34,329 nucleotides of DNA. It comes from Actinomycetota bacterium (GTDB lineage Bacteria; Actinomycetota; Acidimicrobiia; Acidimicrobiales; Ilumatobacteraceae). Below, piece after piece: positions 369 to 25,075 of the stretch. How positions within the stretch are numbered: the stretch's first letter is position 1; each line of letters begins with the position of its first letter. The DNA lies in contig JAFMJD010000009.1 in the NCBI GenBank assembly GCA_017853685.1, positions 1-34,329 of the forward strand. Direction: 5' to 3'. Below the pieces are notes generated by a model. That model made no database searches. It was not told the origin of the DNA and saw nothing but the letters and a program-made list of their open reading frames with translations. Position numbers and translations under genes: made by a program.

Positions 369-2126
369 TCAGGCCGTCGGCAGACGCGGGCCGCCGATGC
401 GCAGATCGTCTCGACGCCGGGTCACGCCGCGCGCATCGAGTTCACCCACTAGCGGCAACACATATTTTCGGGACGCGCCCGTGGCATCTCGAAATTGCGC
501 CACGGTGAATCCCCCGGGGTGCTCGCGCAACAGGTCGGCTGCGATCCGTGATGCGGTGTCGATCGCATCAATGTGAAAGAAGATTCCGTCTCGCTCCACG
601 AGCATCCCGCGCCGCACCAGTGCGCGTAGCACACCGCGATCGATGCCCTCGGGTGCCGGGGGAGCGAACCCGCCCGAGCGAGCGGCCGCAATGAACGGAT
701 GGTCAGCCAGTTCGTCACGTTCGGCTACCGGGCGTACGTACCCATCGGCCACCTCGAGCGATGTTGCGAGGGCCAGAGCGGCGCGCTGGCGCTCGTCGAG
801 TGCAGCGAGGTCGAGGCCCGGCGCCGGCGCTGCTGTTACCCGGGCGACGAGCGCTGCCACGACGTCGTCCACCTCGCCGGGTGCCGTCACCCACGATCCG
901 AGCGTGGGAGTCCGGCGTTCACCCGTGAGTGCCTCGAGTTCGTCCACGTGCACCCAGCGTCGTTCGGCGATCACCCGGTCCACCGAGCGATCGGGCCGCG
1001 CCCGTGCGGCGGAGCGAATAGGGGCAACATCGAGGATCTCGCCGCCACCGACGGTTTCGTTGCGGCCGGACTCGCGCAGCACGAAACGATCACCGGGCAG
1101 CAACGCCACCTCGCGGGAGAGATGCAGTCGCACATTCCCGGTGGAAGCCGGAGTGATTGCATCAGGGCCCAGCACGCGCAGTCGAACCGGAAACTCACCC
1201 GAACCGATGTAGGCCACGTAGGCCCCACGGCGCGAAACATCATGATCGACCGAAGCCAACACCGTGAGCGACGCGTCCACACGCCGCGATGGACGCCAGC
1301 GCGCGTGCACGATCACGACATCACCGCGCGCGAGATCGCTGTGCTCCACCCCCGACAGATTGAGTGCCACGCGGTGGCCGGGTCCGATCTCGTTCACCGC
1401 GCGCCCCAAGGTCTGTATTGCCCGCACGCGGACCGGCAGGACGCCGCGCTCGGTGAGTACCTCTACCTGATCGCCCGATGCCAAGGGCCCGCCGGTGAGT
1501 GTTCCCGTCACCACGGTGCCGGACCCGCGTGCGGCAAAGACGCGGTCGATCCACAGGCGGGGACGTGCGTTGTCTGCTGGTGACGGCGCAGCACGCAGCA
1601 TCGACGCCAACTCGTTGCGCAACGCCTCCAGGCCCGCGCCGGTCACCGACGACACCGCAATCAACGGTGCAGCCTCGAGAAAGGTGCCCGAGACACGATC
1701 AGCGATCTCGAGTTCCACGATCTCGCGCCATTCGTCGTCCACGAGATCGGACTTGGTGAGCGCAATCACGCCGTGGCGTATTCCGAGCAATTCGAGAATC
1801 CGGAGATGTTCCTCGGTCTGGGGCTTCCATCCCTCGGTAGCGGCGACCACGAACAGGCAGGTCTCCACCGCACCGACACCTGCAAGCATGTTGCGCACGA
1901 ATCGCGTGTGACCGGGCACATCGACGAACGAGACGCCAACATCATCGGCAAGCAAGGTGTGGGCAAATCCGAGATCGATCGTGAGACCGCGTCGCTTCTC
2001 CTCCTCGAAACGATCGGGATCCGTCCCGGTGAGCGCTCGCACCAGCGACGACTTTCCGTGGTCGACATGACCCGCCGTGGCGACCACCCGGGTCATCACA
2101 TCATCGGCATGCTCGGCGTTGCTCAT
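369..2126 (-). CDS. selB: Selenocysteine-specific translation elongation factor SelB
   Basis: 585 aa; [51 protein letters not shown] GTPase motifs; long C-terminal extension as in SelB; adjacent to selA. Confidence 0.95.
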
Positions 2127-11140: not shown

Positions 11141-11229
11141 GCCCGACATCCACGGATTTTTCCGTCATGTAACCGAAATATTGCGGCGAACCGTGGTGGA
11201 CTCGTTGCTCGTTGTGGGAAAATGGCCGG

Positions 11230-13242
11230 ATGCTGCAGCGGCCCGCCCCCCGCCTCCGTCGGCGCGCGGCGACCGGGGTGGCAGTCGGACTGCTGGTCAC
11301 CATGGGGACGATGTGGGCGCCCCACACCCCCGGCGTGCCCGCCGCCGATGCCAGCACGGTGGAGCCCGGATCCGCAATGTCGGCCATCACCTCGGCGCCG
11401 GTTCGCCCGCCGTTGTGCACCGAGGAGCAGATCGCCGCAGTGGACTTCGACAACTGCGCGCTCATGTTCGATGGCAATCCCACCGATCATGGCTTTCCCG
11501 CTCCGCCCTTCCCGGGGAACCAGTTCATCATCACGCCAGTCACCGCCGACGAGTGGACACCGCTCACCGTCGGCGCAAGCGGTCCCATCGTCACCGTGCT
11601 GCAGGAAAAATTGAAAGCGACGACTCCGCTCATCACCCAGGACGGCAAGTTCGGCTCGCAGACAGCGACAGCGGTGAAGAAAGCCCAGGAGACCCTCAGC
11701 CTCCCCCAGACCGGCGTGGTCGATGCCGCCACGGCAGCAGCACTCGACATGCTCGTGCGCGCCGAACTCGGTGCCTACCCGCCGCCGGGATTCGTCTGGA
11801 CCGGGAACGACTACAACAATTCACCGGCGCTCGCCGAGTGGGAGAAGCGACTCGTACGCGGCACGGTGCGCACCGACCCCATCGCCTCCGCGTTGTTCGA
11901 GGGGTTCTTGGCTGACCTGCGTCGTGGAACGTTCCGCCTCGATCAGGCGGGTACGTACTCGTTCCGGTGCACTGCCACCACGGTGCGCAACTGCAAGGGC
12001 ATCGGCATGTCGAGCCTCTCGTACCACGCCTGGGGACTCGCCGTCGACGTGAACTACACGGCTAATCCGCTGCAGCAGGTGTATCACTCCACCGATGCAT
12101 GCGCCGCAAACGTGAAGATGAACATTCCTGATTGGGTGCTCAAGACAGCGCAGCACTGGGGAATGTTCTGGGGCGGTTGGTATTCGTGTCCGAAGGCGGG
12201 CCAACGCTCTGTTTTCAAAGATCCGCACCACTTCGAGTTCCGTGGTACGCCGGCAACTGCGGCCGCGATCATTGCGAAGAACTCTGCGGAGGGCGCAGCG
12301 CGCGCTTGGGTTCCCGAACTCGAGGACCTGTTGCTGAGTTGTGGTGACCGAGGTGCTTCGGTGCTGCGTATCCGAGAACTCCTCCCCGCCGACTACCGGC
12401 CCACCGAAGTCGCATCGGCCCAAACGACGTTCACCGCAACGCTCGCAGCGTCGATTGCCAAGTGGCAGGCGGACAACAACCTTCCCGCAACCGGTGCGTT
12501 CGATGCCGCAACTGCCACTGCGCTCGGCCTGACCGTTCGGCACACCGAGGTGTTCCCGGTGCTGCACCTCAACTCGTGCGGCGACGCCGTCAAGGCGCTG
12601 CAGACCAAACTCGGCCTCACGGTGACGGGCACCTTCGGCACCACCACCATGAACACGCTGCGTTCATGGCAACTCTCCAACCGACTCCCACCCACTGGCG
12701 TGACCGACACCCGAACGTCGCGGGCACTCGGTCTGGCGCTCGCCACACCCGAACCCCCACCGAGTACCACGGTGCCGGTCTCCTCGGGCGACCCACCGAC
12801 TGACTCCACCGGCCCACCGATCTTGCGAGCGGCAATCCCGCTGTCGTTCGGTGCCCGCAATGCTTCGGTCTCGGCCCTCCAGCGTGCGCTGACAGCAGCC
12901 GGGTACGTCACCCCGGTGACGGGACGATTCGGCACCACCACGCTGCGAAACCTGCGGGCGTTCCAGGCAGCGAACAAGTTGCGGCTCAGCTCGACGGTGT
13001 CACTGGGTGCAGCGCAATTGCTCGGCTTGACGCCCACTCCGAAACTGCCGGTGCGGTACGGCCAAACCGGTGACCAGGTACGACTCGTGCAGCGGGCGCT
13101 GCGAGACCGGGGAGTGAACCTGCGCGTCGACGGGCGCTTCGGCTGGGCCACCCGGCGAGCAGTCATTGCCTTCCAGCGATCGGCCGGCATCAAGGTGACC
13201 GCCATCGTGGACTCGGCCACCGCCCGGGCCCTCGGCTGGTGA
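11230..13242 (+). CDS. Secreted M15-type (D-alanyl-D-alanine carboxypeptidase-like) peptidase with multiple peptidoglycan-binding domains
   Basis: Signal/TM MLQRPAPRLRRRAATGVAVGLLVTMGTMW; SYHAWGLAVDVNY and DPHHFEF metallopeptidase motifs; PG_binding_1-like repeats such as KALQTKLGLTVTGTFGTTTMNTLRSWQLSNRLPPTGVTDTRTSRALGL. Confidence 0.88.
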   Translation: MLQRPAPRLRRRAATGVAVGLLVTMGTMWAPHTPGVPAADASTVEPGSAMSAITSAPVRPPLCTEEQIAAVDFDNCALMFDGNPTDHGFPAPPFPGNQFIITPVTADEWTPLTVGASGPIVTVLQEKLKATTPLITQDGKFGSQTATAVKKAQETLSLPQTGVVDAATAAALDMLVRAELGAYPPPGFVWTGNDYNNSPALAEWEKRLVRGTVRTDPIASALFEGFLADLRRGTFRLDQAGTYSFRCTATTVRNCKGIGMSSLSYHAWGLAVDVNYTANPLQQVYHSTDACAANVKMNIPDWVLKTAQHWGMFWGGWYSCPKAGQRSVFKDPHHFEFRGTPATAAAIIAKNSAEGAARAWVPELEDLLLSCGDRGASVLRIRELLPADYRPTEVASAQTTFTATLAASIAKWQADNNLPATGAFDAATATALGLTVRHTEVFPVLHLNSCGDAVKALQTKLGLTVTGTFGTTTMNTLRSWQLSNRLPPTGVTDTRTSRALGLALATPEPPPSTTVPVSSGDPPTDSTGPPILRAAIPLSFGARNASVSALQRALTAAGYVTPVTGRFGTTTLRNLRAFQAANKLRLSSTVSLGAAQLLGLTPTPKLPVRYGQTGDQVRLVQRALRDRGVNLRVDGRFGWATRRAVIAFQRSAGIKVTAIVDSATARALGW

Positions 13243-15506: not shown

Positions 15507-18500
15507 TCACGTCACGAGATAGGTATCCATGAATACGAGGCGACGCCGGTACCCGAGCGATGGTGTGAACACCGACCCGGCGAGCTGCAGCAACGAACGC
15601 GAGTCTCGCTCGAACTCCCGGATGACCAGCCGAACCTGCATCGCGGCCTGTTCGGCGTTCGGCGACACCACATTCACTCCGGACACCACGAAACGGCCGA
15701 TGCCATTGAGATTCGTCCCGGGCGCCGGCGACATCGTGTACCGACGAACTGCGTCGTTGTCCACGATGTCCTCCCAGCCGAGTGAGTCGGCGTCGTCCTT
15801 CGACGCATATGACGCAGGCCGATGCTGCACCGTGATCTCGAAACTCGGGGGAACCGTTGCCTGCGGGACGTCGCCCGACACGCTGCCGGCCAGTCTGGGG
15901 ACACCGGTGGTGGCAGACCCGTACATGGGCCCGGTCACCGAGACCGAACGCAGGCTGGTGAGGCCCGACACGGTGAGCGTGCGCGTCGGAGACAATTGCG
16001 CCGCGTCTACCAACACGGGTGCCGACAAGAAGCAATCCGGCAACGAGTAGGGCTGGAAACGCGCAAGCGCGAGACGGATGAAGGGGCGATACGCATCGCC
16101 CAGATCCACCTCGATGTCGCTGTACCAGAGTTGCTGTTCTTCGTCGTACTTCACGGCGTGCGGTACCGCAGTGACCTTGGTGTTCGTACCGGGAACCGAC
16201 AGACCCTGTACCCACTTGGTGGAGTGCGACGGGCTCGTGGCCGCCAGCGGGAAGTTCGCGACGTTCAACTCGGTGCGCGCCGGTGATCCGACACGCAGCG
16301 GATCACGTCCCCACGCACTGCTGTACAACTGCTGCGGTGCCTTCGGCAGACCGGTACCCGGCGGTGCGGCGACAATGCCCGGTTTGAGTGCCGCTTTGGA
16401 GAGCGGCTTGGGCAGGAGCAACACCGCAAGCATCTCGTCGTCGCCGCTCGAGAACCACGGCCGCTCGAGGTACACGCGCAGAATGCGACCCTTGCGGGTA
16501 CGACGCCTTCCGGTGAGGAGGAACCCGGTCTTCACCGGTGCCCACCCCGTATCGGCAAATGCGGGGACGACATCGCGCACCACCGGCGGAGCCGGACGTG
16601 CCGTAGACGGCACATGCCGGTACCGCGCGTTTGCGTCGGTGGTCTGGCGCGTCACGGTGTCGGGTACGAAGTCGATGTCGACGGCTTTGCCGAGGTACGC
16701 GCCCGAGAGCATGGTGAGCGTCCCGGTGGCGTAGTTGATCGAGTAATCGACAGCGCGCGACAACACGGCTCCGGTGACTTTCACCACCACTCGTTCGCTG
16801 AGGGGTTGCACCGCCGACGTGGTGAAGTCGAGTGTGGAGCCCAGTCCACCGAGTACATAACTGACGGTCTCGGTGAAGTACTTCGCATATCGACTGGTGC
16901 CGGTGACCCGGAATCGCACCCATCGGTGCTTGGTATCCCCAAACTCGAAACTCACACCGCTCAACGCAACGAAACTCGGTCGCACACCGGGAGTGGGGTA
17001 GTTGACGATGAACGGCTGGGTGGTTCCTTCTCCGGGTGTCTCGACCGGGACGGTCGGTCCCCGATCGTTCCACTCGGTCCAGTCGAGTCGAAGGTCCAAC
17101 TGGCTCGTGCTCTGAGGGTGACACAACACGCGCGTGCCGAACGATGCCGACGTGCCACCGGCCTGACGAAACGTCGAGATCGGGAGGGGGCGGGGTTCTG
17201 CAAGCGGCTTGCGCACTGCGTGCACCACGGTGAGCACAGTGGGCGGCGTCACCAAACGGTTCAACCCCTGCACCACCCGCGTCACACGACTACTGAGCGA
17301 TACGGGCACAGGCGTACGGGTCTTGAGCAGATGGACGATGCCGAAATGACCTGCGAACGAGGGTGTGAGCAGCGAGGACAGCGAGATCGTGAACTGCTCG
17401 CCCTTGGCGACCCTCACGCGGAATCGACGAGTCGTCGTTACGCCTCCGGCGAGCGCGGCGTCCTCGAGATCGAGCGCCGATGGTGCATTCACACCCAGCC
17501 CCGACAGGGTGACTTGTGACGATCGGGCATCCGCCCAGCCGAGCGCACCCCTCGAGTACTTGGTCGCCTCGGTTCCCATCTCGGGGCCCACGATGCGCAG
17601 TCCGTATGCAGCCGGATCCACGAGCCACGGTGGCTGCGGCAGATCGCCGTCCACCACCGGACTCTGCGCCGAGCCAGAACCCGGATCTGCTGCTGCAAAA
17701 CCGTACGTCTGATACCCGGGCTCGCTCATCCACGACGGTGCATCGGTGTCGCCGATCAACTTCGCACCCTCGCGGTCCGACAACAACTTGTAGGCGACCG
17801 TTGGTGCCAACGAATCGAGTGAGCCGTGCAGTTCCACCAGGTGTGCATTCGCCCCGGGCGGCAGCAGATGGCGTGAGGTCCGACCGGCAGCAGCCACTGG
17901 ACTGAATTCGTCCTCGCTGTAGATCACGAGATTGGTGAGCGACTCACCCCGGGCGAGACGCTGAGTCTGCACGATGGTCGGCGGGGGAACCGGCTCGTAG
18001 CGCAGATAGGGCGCCGCTACGCTCGGCGTACCTGCAGACTCCAACAGCGAGCCCGTGCTCTGCAGCGAAGGACCGAAGCCGGCGAGATTCGCCGAGCGGA
18101 GACGGAACCGATAGGTGCGGCCGTAGCGAAGGCGTGGAAGCGATCCCGGGGTTACCGAGGTGACGATCTGTAGGCCAAGTTGTTCGTTGTACGGAGTGGT
18201 CTGGTCCACGGGCTGATTGGTGGTTGCTGCAAGCGTCCGGCCCGGCCGTGGTGCAACGAGACTCCACCCGGTCCACTCGAGAACCTGCTCCTGCACGAAG
18301 GTGTCGGCATCGGTCTTTCCCGGCTCGGCGCTCGCGGTTACACCGAGCGAGATCACGCCCTCGGTGAGATACAGCGGTCGTTCACCGGGAAGCCAGCCGT
18401 CAACGATGTTGTCGGGCACCGAGTACACCGCCTGGGCACTCACACTGCTGGGGAACAGGTTCACGGTGTAGTCCTGATCACGCTTGGTGATCGATCGCCA

Positions 18501-19853
18501 CTTGCCCTCTGCGGAGTCCCAGACGTCCACTCGCCAACCACGGATGAGGTCTTCAGCGTAGAGCTCGACCCCATCACCCGACCCATCTGCTGCACCACCC
18601 GGAGCGCTCGCACCCTCCAGCAACGCTGCAGACCGCTTGAAATCGGCAACCACATCCAACGCGCGTCCGGCGCGCACGAGCGACAGTCCTCCCGAACGTG
18701 GGGCAGGCACATCCACCGTCGCCGGCGCGTTTCCCGGTGCCTCCTTGGCCACGATGCTGGCGGCGCGCGCAACCGAGTCGGCCAGACCCATGGCTTTGAG
18801 CGCAGTGCCCTCGACGTCGAGCGAGATCACCTGCCAGCCCTTCCCCGATGTCGGGTTGTAGGCGGATCGCAGATCGAGCGAGCCCGACACGCTGAGACGC
18901 TTGGTGTCCTTCGGCGCGGCGAGGAAGGAAGCGGCGTTCAGGCGGGTTCGGGGAAATGACTTCGTGCCGCTCACTTCGCCCACCCAGCCATCGGTTGCGT
19001 CCAGTTGGACGAATGACGAGTCGGCGAAGTTGCCCGATTCGAGAACGTCGGCCGCAGCCACCTCGTAGTCCATCACGAGCCCGAGGCGGCGCATGAGGTA
19101 CGGATGATCCGCAAGCATCGCGAGGATTCGATGGAAGTCCAGACGCGGCGGGGTGATATCTGGGTTCGACAACATGTAGGCCACGCTCGTGCGCGGCTCC
19201 ATGAACCGCTGCAACTGCATGTGATCGCCCAACGGACTCTCACCCGTGGCACTCGCATCAGGCCGCGATGAGCCATGCGGAATCACCTTGCTGAAGGGTG
19301 CTGATTCACCGGAGTTGAATCCCGCCGTGAAAAGCTTGTTGACCCGATCACGCGCCTGGGCATCGTTGATGCCGGTGAGCGACTTGAGCTTTCCGACGAG
19401 CACCGCCGGACTCGGTGAACGTGTCTCGTGCGACTGCGCAAGCTCGAAGAACAACTTGCTGTGGAACTCATGAAGCGGCACGACGGGATACGAGTGGAAA
19501 CGCGAGGTCGCAAAGCGTGCAGCGAATGCCGAGCGAACGAATGCATCCACCGGGAGCGACCCCGGACTGCTGAACAGTTGTGTCCAGAGCTCGAGATCCG
19601 GGTCGGCCGAGATTCGAGTAGCCGAGACGTTCGAGAGCACCGAATACGCAGGACCGGCGGTCAGCGCCTTGAGCCGGACCGTCTTCATCTGCGCGGCGAT
19701 GGTGGGCCACTCCACGAAGTCCGAGAACGACGAGAGATAGCTGCCCCCGCTCAGTCGAGGCGCCACGTGCACCGAGAAGCGGCGAGTGACACCTCCCGTG
19801 CCGGCGCGGCCAGCGGGCAGAACGGTGAAGACGACGGTTTGTGTGGTGGGCAT
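15507..19853 (-). CDS. Giant uncharacterised protein (about 1448 aa), partner of the upstream Tat protein; contains Fn3/Ig-like beta segments
   Basis: Long uninterrupted ORF; ATG at 19853 (MPTTQTVVFTVLPAGRAG) preceded by gagga on the minus strand; segments such as LRYGRTYRFRLRSANLAGFG resemble Fn3-like strands; no signal peptide visible. Confidence 0.85.
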   Translation of the reverse strand: MPTTQTVVFTVLPAGRAGTGGVTRRFSVHVAPRLSGGSYLSSFSDFVEWPTIAAQMKTVRLKALTAGPAYSVLSNVSATRISADPDLELWTQLFSSPGSLPVDAFVRSAFAARFATSRFHSYPVVPLHEFHSKLFFELAQSHETRSPSPAVLVGKLKSLTGINDAQARDRVNKLFTAGFNSGESAPFSKVIPHGSSRPDASATGESPLGDHMQLQRFMEPRTSVAYMLSNPDITPPRLDFHRILAMLADHPYLMRRLGLVMDYEVAAADVLESGNFADSSFVQLDATDGWVGEVSGTKSFPRTRLNAASFLAAPKDTKRLSVSGSLDLRSAYNPTSGKGWQVISLDVEGTALKAMGLADSVARAASIVAKEAPGNAPATVDVPAPRSGGLSLVRAGRALDVVADFKRSAALLEGASAPGGAADGSGDGVELYAEDLIRGWRVDVWDSAEGKWRSITKRDQDYTVNLFPSSVSAQAVYSVPDNIVDGWLPGERPLYLTEGVISLGVTASAEPGKTDADTFVQEQVLEWTGWSLVAPRPGRTLAATTNQPVDQTTPYNEQLGLQIVTSVTPGSLPRLRYGRTYRFRLRSANLAGFGPSLQSTGSLLESAGTPSVAAPYLRYEPVPPPTIVQTQRLARGESLTNLVIYSEDEFSPVAAAGRTSRHLLPPGANAHLVELHGSLDSLAPTVAYKLLSDREGAKLIGDTDAPSWMSEPGYQTYGFAAADPGSGSAQSPVVDGDLPQPPWLVDPAAYGLRIVGPEMGTEATKYSRGALGWADARSSQVTLSGLGVNAPSALDLEDAALAGGVTTTRRFRVRVAKGEQFTISLSSLLTPSFAGHFGIVHLLKTRTPVPVSLSSRVTRVVQGLNRLVTPPTVLTVVHAVRKPLAEPRPLPISTFRQAGGTSASFGTRVLCHPQSTSQLDLRLDWTEWNDRGPTVPVETPGEGTTQPFIVNYPTPGVRPSFVALSGVSFEFGDTKHRWVRFRVTGTSRYAKYFTETVSYVLGGLGSTLDFTTSAVQPLSERVVVKVTGAVLSRAVDYSINYATGTLTMLSGAYLGKAVDIDFVPDTVTRQTTDANARYRHVPSTARPAPPVVRDVVPAFADTGWAPVKTGFLLTGRRRTRKGRILRVYLERPWFSSGDDEMLAVLLLPKPLSKAALKPGIVAAPPGTGLPKAPQQLYSSAWGRDPLRVGSPARTELNVANFPLAATSPSHSTKWVQGLSVPGTNTKVTAVPHAVKYDEEQQLWYSDIEVDLGDAYRPFIRLALARFQPYSLPDCFLSAPVLVDAAQLSPTRTLTVSGLTSLRSVSVTGPMYGSATTGVPRLAGSVSGDVPQATVPPSFEITVQHRPASYASKDDADSLGWEDIVDNDAVRRYTMSPAPGTNLNGIGRFVVSGVNVVSPNAEQAAMQVRLVIREFERDSRSLLQLAGSVFTPSLGYRRRLVFMDTYLVT

Positions 19854-19881
19854 GTGGATTCCTCGTCGCTCGCTCTGCCGC

Positions 19882-22800
19882 TCAGGCAAACGCCCCGACG
19901 TAGTCGTCGTAGTTCGTCTGCGACATCAAGTCGGCGTATCGGACCGGGCCGCCGGGAGCGGCGAGGGCCGAGGCCGATTTTCCGACTGACGCTCCCGTGC
20001 TGTTCCCCCCGAACTCTTTTTCGACGGTCATGGTGACGTCTTTCGAGAAGAAGGCGACCTCGACCGTCACGGTGAGTTCGGCCCGACCCTTCGCCACGCC
20101 GGGGGGCTTCACGTACGAAAGGGTGAGCAGGAACTCGATAGAGATCGTGATGATGCACAGCACCTCGACCCGGCCATTGAGACGCACGAAACCCGAGAGC
20201 TCGAGTTGCTCATCCGGATCGGTTCGCATACCGAAGTAGATGCCCGCCATCACGCTCACGCTGCCGCTGGCGATACCGATGTCGAACTGTGCTGCTGCAC
20301 CGAACTCGAGGGAGATCTCGAGCGAACGAATGCCGTTGAGGCCCAACTCGATTCCGAAGAACCCGCTGCCACCGAAGATTCCGACGGTGAGGAGGAACGG
20401 ACGGTCCTTGCGACTGACGTTGAACTTGGCCGTCATCGGATCCGAGTTGAACGGCAGCGTGATCAGCATGCCCACTTCGAGGTTGGACAGCGAGAACACG
20501 CCCACGGCCAATGTGGGCAGACCGAGCGTGAATCCGACGGCCACCTTGCTGGAGGACACATCGAAGATCGGGTTGAACTGGAGGCCCGAATCCTCGAGCG
20601 GCACCACATCGCCACCACTCGCGCTCGGGAGACTGTTGAACAATCCGCTCTCGGGTGCGAGGTACCGGCGCAACTCCATGATGTATTCGAGCGCGCCCTT
20701 GAACTCCACGTTCGCCAGGTTCGGTTCCACCTTGGCACCCGCGCCCGTCTTGGCCGAGAACGTGAGCGACGAGAACTGCAGGGTGATAAAGCCGAACTCG
20801 TCGATGCCAATGAGATTCACCCGGAAGTTCTTCAACTCGGCCCGGGCCTCGGCCTTGGTCTCGAGCTTGGACAGACTCGGCGACGACGTGAAGTCCGACG
20901 CACTCACGTCGTACTTCACCGTGGCCTCTGCGGCGATGATCAGTTCCGAGTTCGGACCCTCATCGGTGAAACTGTTCTGGAAGATGTCGAGCGGCGAGTT
21001 CTTGAGATTGGTTGTCGACCACCGATACTTGATGGTCATGCCGATCGGGATCTTCTGACTCTTCCCCAGAACCGTGACGGTCTTGTAGATGATCTCGGTG
21101 GTGAGACCAGGAATCTTGGGCTGTTCGAGATCGATGCTCGGCAGACTCGAACCACCACTGAACGCGCCCAGGATGTCGGGGAGTTCGATGCCGCCGAGGA
21201 TCTTCGGGAATCCGGAGAACCAATCGGCCGGATTGAAGTTCAACTTGCCGCCCACACCGCTGATGAGATCGGGCAACGACCCGAGGCTCGGCCAATTCCC
21301 CCCGAAGGTTCCGAGTACCGCCGAGAGTCCCGTGAGGCTGAAGTTCGGCGAGATCAATCCGCCGATCTGGCTGAGATCGGGAAACTCGATGTCGAGACCG
21401 GCGATGCTGGGCAGATCGAGGGACGGAATCGAACCGAGGTCGAACATTCGGGCGAAGACCTTGCCCACGGCATTCAGGTCCCCGAATCCCGAGCCGAGGT
21501 ACACGTCGGGGAAGCGGAAACCGAACACGCCACCGATACCCGCAAGATCGCCGAGGCCATCGAGTTTGATGGCGGCGAAATCCATCGCGGGGAACGAGAG
21601 ACCCTCGCCGAGGAGATCGCCGAGCAAATCGCCGAGTTGGCCGAGATTCAAGAGCCCCTTGAACGAGATGCCGAATGTAGGGAAGCTCGTCTTGCCCACG
21701 GTGTCCTCGCCGAACTCCGGCGCAAAGCCGATTCGCAACCCGTCGAGTTTGATGAGTCGGAAGTTGGCGTTCGGGTAGGCGTCGTAGGCATTGGCGAGCG
21801 CATTCCTGTTGGCCAACGACGGATCGACATACGTCGCCCGGGCAAACGCCAGTGGGATCTGGACCTGATGCTGTTGGCCCAACTGGTCGGTGACCGTGCA
21901 TGACCACCGAAACACCTCACCGCCGATCGTGGGGAAGTACGCGCTGGGTTGTACTGCGGTTCCACCAATGTCGGTCTTGGCGATGGGCGGTGTGCTCTCG
22001 GTGTCGATCGTGATGGTGGTGAAGGGGAATCGGCGACCGAACTCGTCGTCACCGCCGTAGGTGCGGTGCTTCTCCTTCACGACGATGAAGGTGTACGTGT
22101 GCAGGTACGCCACCGGTCCAGTCGATGCGCCAGTGCCCGTCGGTGTGATGAACACTCGCTCGGACACCGTGACTTCGGCGGCACGATGCAACGTGGGGTA
22201 CAGATACCCCTCGTACACGACCTTCACGAAGTAGTCGCGACCCGCAAAGGCCCGGTGCACGTAATTGATCAGGCCGAGGTTGTAACCGTTGCCGATGTGC
22301 TTCTCGAAGTCGCCCGACATGTCCACGGTGGCGCCGATACTCGACATGCGGAACCGTTTGGCCCGCAGCGCAGGCGGAGTGGGTGCGTACGGGTTCGGCT
22401 TGTAGGTGGTCTGCCCGACGAGTTGCCAACGGTCGTACGAGCCGGGCAGCGTGACGAATCCGAGATCGGGTGAGGCGATCGGTGGCGACGTCTCCTCCGG
22501 AGCGTTGAGCGGGTCGTAGTCGGGTGAGTTCGTCCACACGGCACGCAGGTCCGCGTCGCCGTACCCAGACCATGAGTCGTAGTCGAGATCGTTCGGTGTA
22601 ACACGATCAGCGCCGAAATCGACAAAGCGAAGGTTCACATCGCGCAGGGCCGATGACCACACTTCGGTTCGCCCGCCGTGGGTCACCGGAGTGAGCGAGT
22701 GCAACCACCGTCCGAACGATGTGGGCGTAAGGATCAGCCCATAGGGAAACTCGATCGCGGTTTCGGGCGCGTGATCGCCCACGAGTAGCGAATAGGACGC

Positions 22801-23493
22801 TCCTGCTCTCGGCTCGGCAAGCGGCTTCACTGACGGACCGGCCACGACTCCCGGTGTCCACACCCGACCGACGTCGGCTTCGGCCACCAGTGCAGGAGTG
22901 AACGCTCGGCTCGTCCAGTTGAGCAAGCCCGATTCGGTGAAGGGCACATCTGCCGCCGTGGGGTCGATCTCGAAGGCAAGACGACTCGGCGACCCGATGC
23001 GTGAGCGCAATGGCAACGCACGGTGCCAGCGCTTCGTGGCTCCGCTCCCGGTGGCGTACGGCACGCCGGCTTTCGGTGCAGCCGGACTGCCATCGGGATA
23101 ATCGCTTCCGGCTGGATCCTGGAAGTGCAGTGCCTCTTCGGCCACGTGCTGGGGAGGGAACTCCACCACGATGTACGCGGCACGACTTCCGTACTCCTTG
23201 GTGAGTCGTTCGGGCGACCCGGTCACCTGCAGGTTGTAGAAGGTGAAACGGAGATCGATGAGATCTGCGGCGCGCGAGAACGTGAACGTCCATGACGTCG
23301 GATTGTCGAACAGCGGCAGAGCGGGGCCGACGCTGCGAGCCGGTTCGCGTGCTGCCGCAGCAGCCAGTTCTGCCGGCGAGATGATGGTGGCTCCGGCGCC
23401 ACCGGCCATCAACGCGAGGAATCTGCGTCGTGACTGGGGCGCGACGAACTCATTCGGCTCGGCCTCGGGCCGATCGGCATCTCCACCTGCCAT
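19882..23493 (-). CDS. Giant Tat-exported uncharacterised protein (1203 aa) with Gly/Leu/Ile/Pro-rich middle and beta-rich C-terminus
   Basis: N-terminal QSRRRFLALMAGGAGATIISPAELAAAAA (twin-arginine S-R-R-x-F-L plus hydrophobic core); SD aggggag upstream; repeated [FL]P[DS][LI] motifs; C-terminal alternating beta-strand pattern (FLLTVGIFGGSGFFGIELGLNGIRSLEISLEFGAAAQFDIGIASGSVSVMAGIYFGM). Confidence 0.88.
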   Translation of the reverse strand: MAGGDADRPEAEPNEFVAPQSRRRFLALMAGGAGATIISPAELAAAAAREPARSVGPALPLFDNPTSWTFTFSRAADLIDLRFTFYNLQVTGSPERLTKEYGSRAAYIVVEFPPQHVAEEALHFQDPAGSDYPDGSPAAPKAGVPYATGSGATKRWHRALPLRSRIGSPSRLAFEIDPTAADVPFTESGLLNWTSRAFTPALVAEADVGRVWTPGVVAGPSVKPLAEPRAGASYSLLVGDHAPETAIEFPYGLILTPTSFGRWLHSLTPVTHGGRTEVWSSALRDVNLRFVDFGADRVTPNDLDYDSWSGYGDADLRAVWTNSPDYDPLNAPEETSPPIASPDLGFVTLPGSYDRWQLVGQTTYKPNPYAPTPPALRAKRFRMSSIGATVDMSGDFEKHIGNGYNLGLINYVHRAFAGRDYFVKVVYEGYLYPTLHRAAEVTVSERVFITPTGTGASTGPVAYLHTYTFIVVKEKHRTYGGDDEFGRRFPFTTITIDTESTPPIAKTDIGGTAVQPSAYFPTIGGEVFRWSCTVTDQLGQQHQVQIPLAFARATYVDPSLANRNALANAYDAYPNANFRLIKLDGLRIGFAPEFGEDTVGKTSFPTFGISFKGLLNLGQLGDLLGDLLGEGLSFPAMDFAAIKLDGLGDLAGIGGVFGFRFPDVYLGSGFGDLNAVGKVFARMFDLGSIPSLDLPSIAGLDIEFPDLSQIGGLISPNFSLTGLSAVLGTFGGNWPSLGSLPDLISGVGGKLNFNPADWFSGFPKILGGIELPDILGAFSGGSSLPSIDLEQPKIPGLTTEIIYKTVTVLGKSQKIPIGMTIKYRWSTTNLKNSPLDIFQNSFTDEGPNSELIIAAEATVKYDVSASDFTSSPSLSKLETKAEARAELKNFRVNLIGIDEFGFITLQFSSLTFSAKTGAGAKVEPNLANVEFKGALEYIMELRRYLAPESGLFNSLPSASGGDVVPLEDSGLQFNPIFDVSSSKVAVGFTLGLPTLAVGVFSLSNLEVGMLITLPFNSDPMTAKFNVSRKDRPFLLTVGIFGGSGFFGIELGLNGIRSLEISLEFGAAAQFDIGIASGSVSVMAGIYFGMRTDPDEQLELSGFVRLNGRVEVLCIITISIEFLLTLSYVKPPGVAKGRAELTVTVEVAFFSKDVTMTVEKEFGGNSTGASVGKSASALAAPGGPVRYADLMSQTNYDDYVGAFA

Positions 23494-23635
23494 CGTGTCC
23501 AGCTCCCCTCGCTGACGCTGCCATCACCCTAATTCACCGGCGACGACGGTGCGTCGGACGACGGGCGACGGGCGACGAAGCGGCGCAGCTCAGCACCGAT
23601 CACAGTTCGACCCGTCGGTTGCGTTGGAACGCCTC

Positions 23636-25075
23636 ATGACGACCACACCCGACTTCCCCATCTCCATCGAGCACCGCCACAAACCCTCCCGGCCCGACGT
23701 CGTTCGGGCCATGGGAGCGGTGGTGGGTGCTGCGGTGGGCGACGCGCTCGGAGCACCCTTCGAGTTCGCGATGGCGGGTGAGTTCGGCCGACGCTTTGCT
23801 GCGCCGGTGATCGGCGGTACCGGCGAGATGGTGGGCGGCGGCGTGTTCGGCTGGGCTCCCGGTGAGTTCACCGACGACACCCAGATGGCGATCGCCCTCG
23901 CCGAGGCACTGTTGGCGCACGGCGGATATGACCCTGACCGGGTATGGGAATGGTTCCGCACGTGGGTGGAGACCGCCCGTGACGTCGGCACCCGAACCGG
24001 TGCCTCGCTCGCCCACGCCGATTGGCGTTCGGTGCCCCGGAACACCTCGCACAGTGCGGGCAACGGAGCGCTGATGCGCGCCTTCCCGCTGGCGCTGGCC
24101 TTCGGTGGGGCCGACCGGGAAACCACCCGGGCGGTGGTGCTCCACCAAGCGGCGCTCACCCACCCCGACGAATCCGCCGGGTGGGGAGCATGGATCGCCG
24201 TCGAGATGATCCGTTCGGCGATCCGGGGCGGCGACGCGCTCGCCGAGATCGATGGACTGCTCGACGACATGCCCGATGAGCTGTCGGCGCAGTTCGCTGC
24301 ACTGCTCAGCCCGCGCTGGAAGCCGGGCGACTCCGCTCCCTCGAACGGGTCGGTGTGGGGATGCCTTGCCGAGGCCGTGTGGGCAGTGCGCTCCACCGAC
24401 TCCTACGAGGCCGCCATCACCGCAGCGATCGATCTCGGTGGCGACACCGACACGGTGGCGTGTGTGGTGGGCGCCATCGCCGGAGCGATGTACGGCATGC
24501 AGGCGATCCCGTCTCGCTGGGCCACCTATGTGCACGGGTCGCTCGACACTCCCACCGGGCGTCGCTCCTACTCGCTGTTCGACCTCCAGAACCTCGCCCG
24601 ACGACTCATGGGATTGGCCGTCAAGCCCGATACGCCTCCCGAGACACCGGCGGGGCCGATGGAGGTGGCTCCTTCGCTGCATGCAGCGGACCTCTTGGGT
24701 GCGGCGAGTGTGCCCACCGACTGGGCCGTGGTGTCACTGTGCCGAACCGGCGACCACTTCACTGCACACCCGGTGCGCCGCAACATCTACCTCATCGACG
24801 AAGAGGGCGACCACAACCTGTCGATCGGTGATGCAGTGCGCGACGCCGTGGATGCCATCGATGCGTTCTTGGCCGAGGGGCGCAACGTGGTTGTGCACTG
24901 CCACGGTGGGCGCAGCCGCACCGGGCTCGCGCTGAAGGCCTGGGCGATGCGCGCGTTCGGATACGACGAGCGTGCCGCACACGAGTGGCTCGAGGCCGCG
25001 TGGCACCGCTATCAGGACTACAACCGTGACTTCCTCGATTTCCTCCACTCGGAGTGGACGCCACAGGTCGGCTAG
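23636..25075 (+). CDS. ADP-ribosylglycohydrolase (DraG-like) fused to a C-terminal tyrosine/dual-specificity phosphatase-like domain
   Basis: AMGAVVGAAVGDALGAPFEF, FTDDTQMAIALAEALL, DLGGDTDTVACVVGAIAGAMYG (ARG metal-binding motifs); C-terminal NVVVHCHGGRSRTGLALKAW (HCx5R phosphatase loop). ATG at 23636. Confidence 0.9.
   Translation: MTTTPDFPISIEHRHKPSRPDVVRAMGAVVGAAVGDALGAPFEFAMAGEFGRRFAAPVIGGTGEMVGGGVFGWAPGEFTDDTQMAIALAEALLAHGGYDPDRVWEWFRTWVETARDVGTRTGASLAHADWRSVPRNTSHSAGNGALMRAFPLALAFGGADRETTRAVVLHQAALTHPDESAGWGAWIAVEMIRSAIRGGDALAEIDGLLDDMPDELSAQFAALLSPRWKPGDSAPSNGSVWGCLAEAVWAVRSTDSYEAAITAAIDLGGDTDTVACVVGAIAGAMYGMQAIPSRWATYVHGSLDTPTGRRSYSLFDLQNLARRLMGLAVKPDTPPETPAGPMEVAPSLHAADLLGAASVPTDWAVVSLCRTGDHFTAHPVRRNIYLIDEEGDHNLSIGDAVRDAVDAIDAFLAEGRNVVVHCHGGRSRTGLALKAWAMRAFGYDERAAHEWLEAAWHRYQDYNRDFLDFLHSEWTPQVG

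Follow-up and report, generated by a model that had tools for sequence, protein, structure and literature searches.

The window, by which is meant the whole stretch of 34,329 nucleotides that was analysed, carries two giant genes in tandem on its minus strand, referred to here as A and B. The features of the locus are as follows, each with the evidence it draws on in brackets.

19882..23493, minus strand: gene A, 1203 aa from an ATG start, predicted to be beta-rich and with an N-terminal twin-arginine motif (open reading frame and translation, family profile, AlphaFold2 model)
15507..19853, minus strand: gene B, 1448 aa, signal-less, a predicted Ig/Fn3-like beta-sandwich array (open reading frame, family profile, AlphaFold2 model of a relative, Foldseek)
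23350..23433, minus strand: Tat-like signal SRRRFLALMAGGAGATIISPAELAAAAA, residues 21-48 of A (sequence; recurrence at the N-terminus of 34 of 60 A relatives; TatC in the genome)
23503..23510, minus strand: Shine-Dalgarno-like GAGGGGAG, 9 nt 5' of the ATG of A (sequence)
19854..19881, minus strand: gap of 28 nt between A and B, with a Shine-Dalgarno-like GAGGA at 19860-19864 (sequence)
19885..19911, minus strand: C-terminal peptide of A, YDDYVGAFA (family consensus WxxYCxAFA), following a low-confidence linker, a possible docking tag (conservation, pLDDT)

These coordinates, and the GAGGA placed 6 nt ahead of the ATG of B at 19853 (its stop is at 15507), agree with the initial annotation, which had described two tandem minus-strand genes separated by 28 nt, the second with a start preceded by a Shine-Dalgarno sequence. 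Judged by their sequences, both open frames are real genes, since both reading frames are conserved across phyla. The contig around the pair is chromosomal-looking, with SelB, ArsA-type ATPases, a methylase and a peptidase with peptidoglycan-binding domains. An M15-type peptidase of 676 aa with five peptidoglycan-binding domain matches lies at 11212-13242 (plus strand), and the divergent neighbour of the pair at 23549-25075 (plus strand) encodes an ADP-ribosylglycohydrolase fused to a dual-specificity phosphatase-like domain. The SelB-like selenocysteine elongation factor at 369-2126 (minus strand) suggests that this genome produces selenoproteins.

Neither A nor B of the window matched anything in Pfam, NCBIfam, PHROGs, PADLOC or the PDB sequences above threshold, the sub-threshold matches being to the fn3 domain of 2crz and to tail-tube and SprA models around residues 1006-1075 of B. 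Profiles built from 64 and 70 relatives likewise found nothing in the PDB, and no catalytic family or fold was recognised in either protein by sequence or structure searches, as the initial annotation had anticipated when it could name an enzyme family for neither. A literature search returned no description of the pair, which is a thin test given that the families are unnamed. The pair is an unannotated two-gene system, for which the libraries searched contain neither a name nor a profile or structure.

The AlphaFold2 model of A in the window (residues 60-1203; pLDDT 77, pTM 0.67) consists largely of beta structure, and its C-terminal half has strands 12-19 residues long that form extended beta-meanders. 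These are followed by a linker with pLDDT below 50 and then by a short helix carrying WxxYxxAFA, the columns of which are 94-95% conserved across the family at the extreme C-terminus of A. As modelled, this end of the protein looks like a docking peptide, because a conserved helix is tethered by a variable linker, and B would be the partner on which it docks. For B, residues 1-1200 of a relative were modelled with a pLDDT of 89.9 and a pTM of 0.74 (locus L105). The likenesses returned by Foldseek were generic, A resembling outer-membrane barrels at a TM of no more than 0.32 and B resembling Ig/Fn3/MG arrays at no more than 0.24. B always begins at a conserved first strand, MxxQTIxWTALPNG...LSVxVSPRL, and holds several residues that are invariant in the family, the conserved ones being mostly Trp, Gly, Pro, Arg and Asp. 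In the window A and B are oppositely charged (pI 4.9 and 9.1), a feature that was considered and set aside, as the family at large does not share it. In a Chloroflexota bin, A carries an N-terminal beta-propeller-like extension with a weak Lactonase match (L144:2444-3433).

The two proteins are very large. Mature A (124 kDa) and B (155 kDa) of the window add up to about 279 kDa, and the pair on plasmid pC of Sinorhizobium meliloti, with a Tat-bearing A of 3052 aa (331 kDa) and a B of 1766 aa (192 kDa), to about 520 kDa. Frames of 2155-3045 aa that could have been read as A-B fusion polypeptides proved to be B frames over-extended upstream into A.

Homologues of the two genes were not found apart. 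Every one of the 102 loci that extend 5' of B has A immediately before it on that strand; at least five are second copies within the same genome, and the set covers isolates and plasmids from Cupriavidus, Rhizobium, Diaphorobacter, Sinorhizobium and Streptomyces. Typically the genes overlap by a few nucleotides or have a few tens between them, and the median distance to the conserved B start is 16.5 nt. Amongst 397 sampled genomes, each of the 12 that have B also has A, and a search of the same genomes starting from A returned these 12 together with two weak partial matches (G481 and G642), in the first of which a remote B adjoins the weak A match (hhalign 93.7%, E 1.9e-7). This very distant pair (L168:4458-13295) has an A homologue that is split over two frames. 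The pairing is far stronger than the initial annotation, made from a single locus, could have known. Trees of A and B built from 60 pairs resemble one another closely (Mantel r 0.84, against a permutation maximum of 0.27; 34 of 57 splits in common), and neither tracks phyla. With the linkage invariant and the trees agreeing with each other but not with phyla, these comparisons indicate that the pair is inherited as one unit and has apparently been transferred as one. There is no family-wide conserved third gene around the pair, the conserved neighbours being lineage-specific.

The two genes are uncommon in the window's own family and order. Out of 347 genomes from the order 9 have B, as do 12 out of 397 from the phylum, and it was absent from both genomes of the same genus (n = 2). 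A scan of genome contigs with the B sequence alone gave no match; when 84,980 species were scanned with an eight-row alignment of B, 378 relatives emerged, of which 80 loci were retrieved. By record title the relatives span at least 12 phyla, although many are metagenome bins of which the taxonomy may be wrong. Isolates with the pair belong to the Actinomycetota, Bacillota (Paenibacillus), Pseudomonadota (Rhodoblastus, Roseovarius) and Bacteroidota (Prolixibacter), and plasmid records with relatives come from Cupriavidus, Rhizobium, Diaphorobacter, Sinorhizobium, Agrobacterium, Ruegeria and Streptomyces. The distribution is very sporadic and cassette-like, with what looks like transfer between phyla. 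No B was found in the 50,697 phage records searched. One contig of a viral collection (L079; IMGVR_UViG_3300004093_000021) holds a complete A-B pair and may be misfiled bacterial DNA.

The twin-arginine signal that the initial annotation had read on A is borne out by relatives in which it recurs in the same position. Of 60 A relatives, 34 have an N-terminal RR motif and, after it, a hydrophobic stretch free of charged residues, against 9.4% of 702 flanking open reading frames that were positive under the same lenient script rule; three script calls were rejected by eye as non-terminal or atypical (L117, L120 and L128) and one that the script had missed was accepted (L153). These Tat-bearing A proteins come from the Actinomycetota, Chloroflexota, Bacillota, Aminicenantota, Armatimonadota, Bacteroidota and Balneolota and from alphaproteobacterial plasmids, and some have an extra domain of about 400 aa between the signal and the core. 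The Tat models of Pfam and NCBIfam are silent on A of the window, so that the call there rests on the motif together with its recurrence. TatC is present in the genome of the window and in 11 of 11 other genomes tested.

The remaining 26 of the 60 A relatives lack the motif, often starting at the core with no room for any signal. The Tat label changes about 7-8 times on the trees, compared with 20 in shuffles. Tat export is therefore a property of part of the family, the member in the window included, and not of the family as a whole. On B, no signal peptide was seen in 80 relatives, in line with the initial annotation, and a Tat motif was absent in 79 of the 80, the lone exception being an over-extended open reading frame. 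Cysteine makes up 0.30-0.43% of A and B and about 0.95% of flanking open reading frames, being 2-3 times rarer in the pair; it is low in both the Tat-bearing and the signal-less groups and so does not separate them.

Whether B leaves the cell as well can be approached through the domains fused to it. In one genome (G624), a signal-less B of 1851 aa ends in three CWB2 domains, which bind the cell wall (E 1.8e-46; a single case), and the A that adjoins it has the Tat signal GRRRLLQGGLVLFSATML. With 163 CWB2 matches in its genome, CWB2 is the ordinary surface anchor of this bacterium. Sec-type signals begin four further CWB2 proteins with readable starts, from this genome and a sister genome, by a rough choice of frame. 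About 160 CWB2 matches in each of two related genomes (G624 and G545) is an unusually large set. CWB2 without a signal is known also from phage endolysins (PMC9045149). Elsewhere, B ends in two fn3 domains (5.5e-18) beside a Tat-bearing A (G044), and in an Ig-like Big_3_5 domain beside an A that is nevertheless signal-less (L092), meaning either that another export route exists or that such domains do not prove export. CWB2 (PF04122) had no match in A or B of the window, nor in its whole genome.

Lineage-specific neighbours offer a second line of evidence. In seven Actinomycetota loci a third gene, T1, follows 10-43 nt 3' of B (the distance at L097 is blurred by an over-extended frame). At six of these A has the Tat signal and T1 a Sec-type signal, and at the seventh (L101, a single case) A lacks the Tat motif and T1 lacks a signal; this copy may be damaged or misassembled, since its A is split by a frame break. 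A wider search for T1 returned only a shared Ig-like domain and no plasmid match. In the Balneolota, Rhodothermota and relatives, two exported proteins are encoded near the pair, one of them beta-barrel-like, about 640 aa long and exported by Sec, the other Ig/Fn3-like. Beside one pair is an exported protein with an Ig/Fn3-like domain fused to RCC1-like repeats (WSWGxNxxGQLG; L124:2111-4366). On pC of S. meliloti, a conjugative plasmid, B is followed after 50 nt by a gene for a TatA-like protein of 55 aa (PF02416, E 2.4e-9; L076:18386-18553).

Taken together, the fused extracellular or wall domains and the signals of T1 lend indirect support to the export of B. The initial annotation had proposed that B leaves the cell together with A; the CWB2, fn3 and Big_3_5 fusions, and the signal that is missing from T1 where it is missing from A, favour this, whilst its generality is not supported, as 26 of 60 A relatives have no Tat motif. 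Two of the observations that it had named as speaking against the idea, homologues of the genes usually lying apart and a signal peptide on B, were looked for and not found. The reading that we prefer, with a probability of roughly 55%, is that A and B are the two obligate parts of a single giant complex, beta-rich and probably without a cofactor, that is exported through Tat by hitchhiking and acts at the surface or outside the cell. The two proteins would fold and assemble into a complex in the cytoplasm, perhaps by way of the C-terminal WxxYxxAFA of A, and in Tat-bearing lineages the signal of A would then carry the complex, of about 279 kDa in the window, through TatABC with B as the hitchhiker. 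Once outside, the Ig/Fn3-like array of B, with an anchor such as CWB2 where there is one, would hold or display the complex on the surface, and the type of fold and the fused domains suggest a binding, adhesive or structural assembly. The signal-less versions of A imply a second mode, cytoplasmic or by another route, or a role that does not need export everywhere.

That last group is also what an opposing account would build on, namely that the pair forms a cytoplasmic or lysis-released complex in which the Tat-like motif is secondary or non-functional and export is not the general mode. The signal-less state of every B and of 26 of 60 A, the low cysteine that is seen in the signal-less group as well and the silence of the Tat profiles on A of the window all fit this. 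We consider it unlikely, however, as the RR motif and hydrophobic stretch recur at the N-terminus of A in distant phyla at well over the control rate, B is found fused to anchor domains, and T1 genes with Sec signals adjoin Tat-bearing A. Another account would have A alone exported and B staying inside as its dedicated chaperone for folding or proofreading, retaining A until folding is complete. Dedicated chaperones are common amongst Tat substrates (PMC4273604), B is always signal-less and its linkage to A is strict; but the C-terminal CWB2, fn3 and Big_3_5 domains of B relatives are hard to reconcile with a cytoplasmic chaperone, B is bigger than A and made of Ig/Fn3-like sandwiches, and it is kept where A has no Tat signal, making this rather less likely again.

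A secreted enzyme or effector of two subunits, its active site having escaped recognition, would suit the sporadic, cassette-like spread with its apparent transfer between phyla, as well as the several invariant residues of B. This seems improbable, given that neither sequence nor structure searches point to a catalytic family or fold and that the conserved residues of B are of the kind that fit the turns of beta-sandwiches. That the pair belongs to a phage tail or contractile injection particle, as the very weak tail-tube and distal-tail profile matches at residues 1006-1075 of B and the pair on one IMG/VR contig might hint, is scarcely credible when there is no match among the 50,697 phage records, no tail, sheath or baseplate family conserved around the pair, no match of A to viral structures with E below 0.001, and Tat signals are not expected for tail proteins.

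Returning to the complex exported by hitchhiking, the pair may further represent a new class of extracellular machine, in which two giant subunits come together in the cytoplasm beforehand and pass through Tat intact, at sizes reaching about 520 kDa in Sinorhizobium, and which moves between phyla as a two-gene cassette, its Tat signal being gained or lost together with the signals of accessory proteins; this wider proposal is put forward tentatively. If B does leave on the signal of A, the upper size limit of the Tat translocase, an open question, becomes directly testable. The natural Tat-plus and Tat-minus versions of the pair are a ready comparison.

Amongst known systems, the outer-membrane barrels BtuB, LptD and FhaC and the porins are the best Foldseek matches of the long beta-meanders of A, but the TM-scores do not exceed 0.32 and there is no sequence similarity; A has a Tat-type signal and occurs in monoderms (Actinomycetota, Paenibacillus), unlike such barrels, which take the Sec/BAM route. 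The best Foldseek matches of B are likewise beta-sandwich arrays, those of alpha-2-macroglobulin, complement C3 and the insulin receptor Fn3 pairs, though this is a generic likeness of fold at a TM of 0.24 or lower without sequence similarity, and with alpha-2-macroglobulin itself there is no Pfam match at E up to 5 and a TM-score below 0.12 to its structures. Phage tails and contractile injection systems differ in that no conserved tail-gene neighbourhood was found for the pair, nor any homologue in the phage records searched. CWB2-anchored surface and S-layer proteins (PF04122) share the three terminal CWB2 repeats with the B of one genome (G624), whereas the B of the window and almost all B scanned have no CWB2, and B is without a signal of its own. 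The closest parallel is with Tat hitchhiking, an established principle in the HybOC hydrogenase and the PaoABC aldehyde oxidoreductase of E. coli (PMC4273604), where likewise a single operon encodes a subunit that bears a Tat signal and, next to it, a partner that bears none, with co-export proposed. The A-B pair has the same marks, with a Tat signal on one partner, none on the other, adjacency and co-occurrence; it differs in that no cofactor or redox domain was found and in that part of the A family has no Tat signal. PaoABC, at 135 kDa, is named among the largest Tat-exported structures (PMC4273604), and if B does ride out on the signal of A, the pair in the window, at about 279 kDa, would be a natural and apparently cofactor-free Tat hitchhiker of about twice that size.
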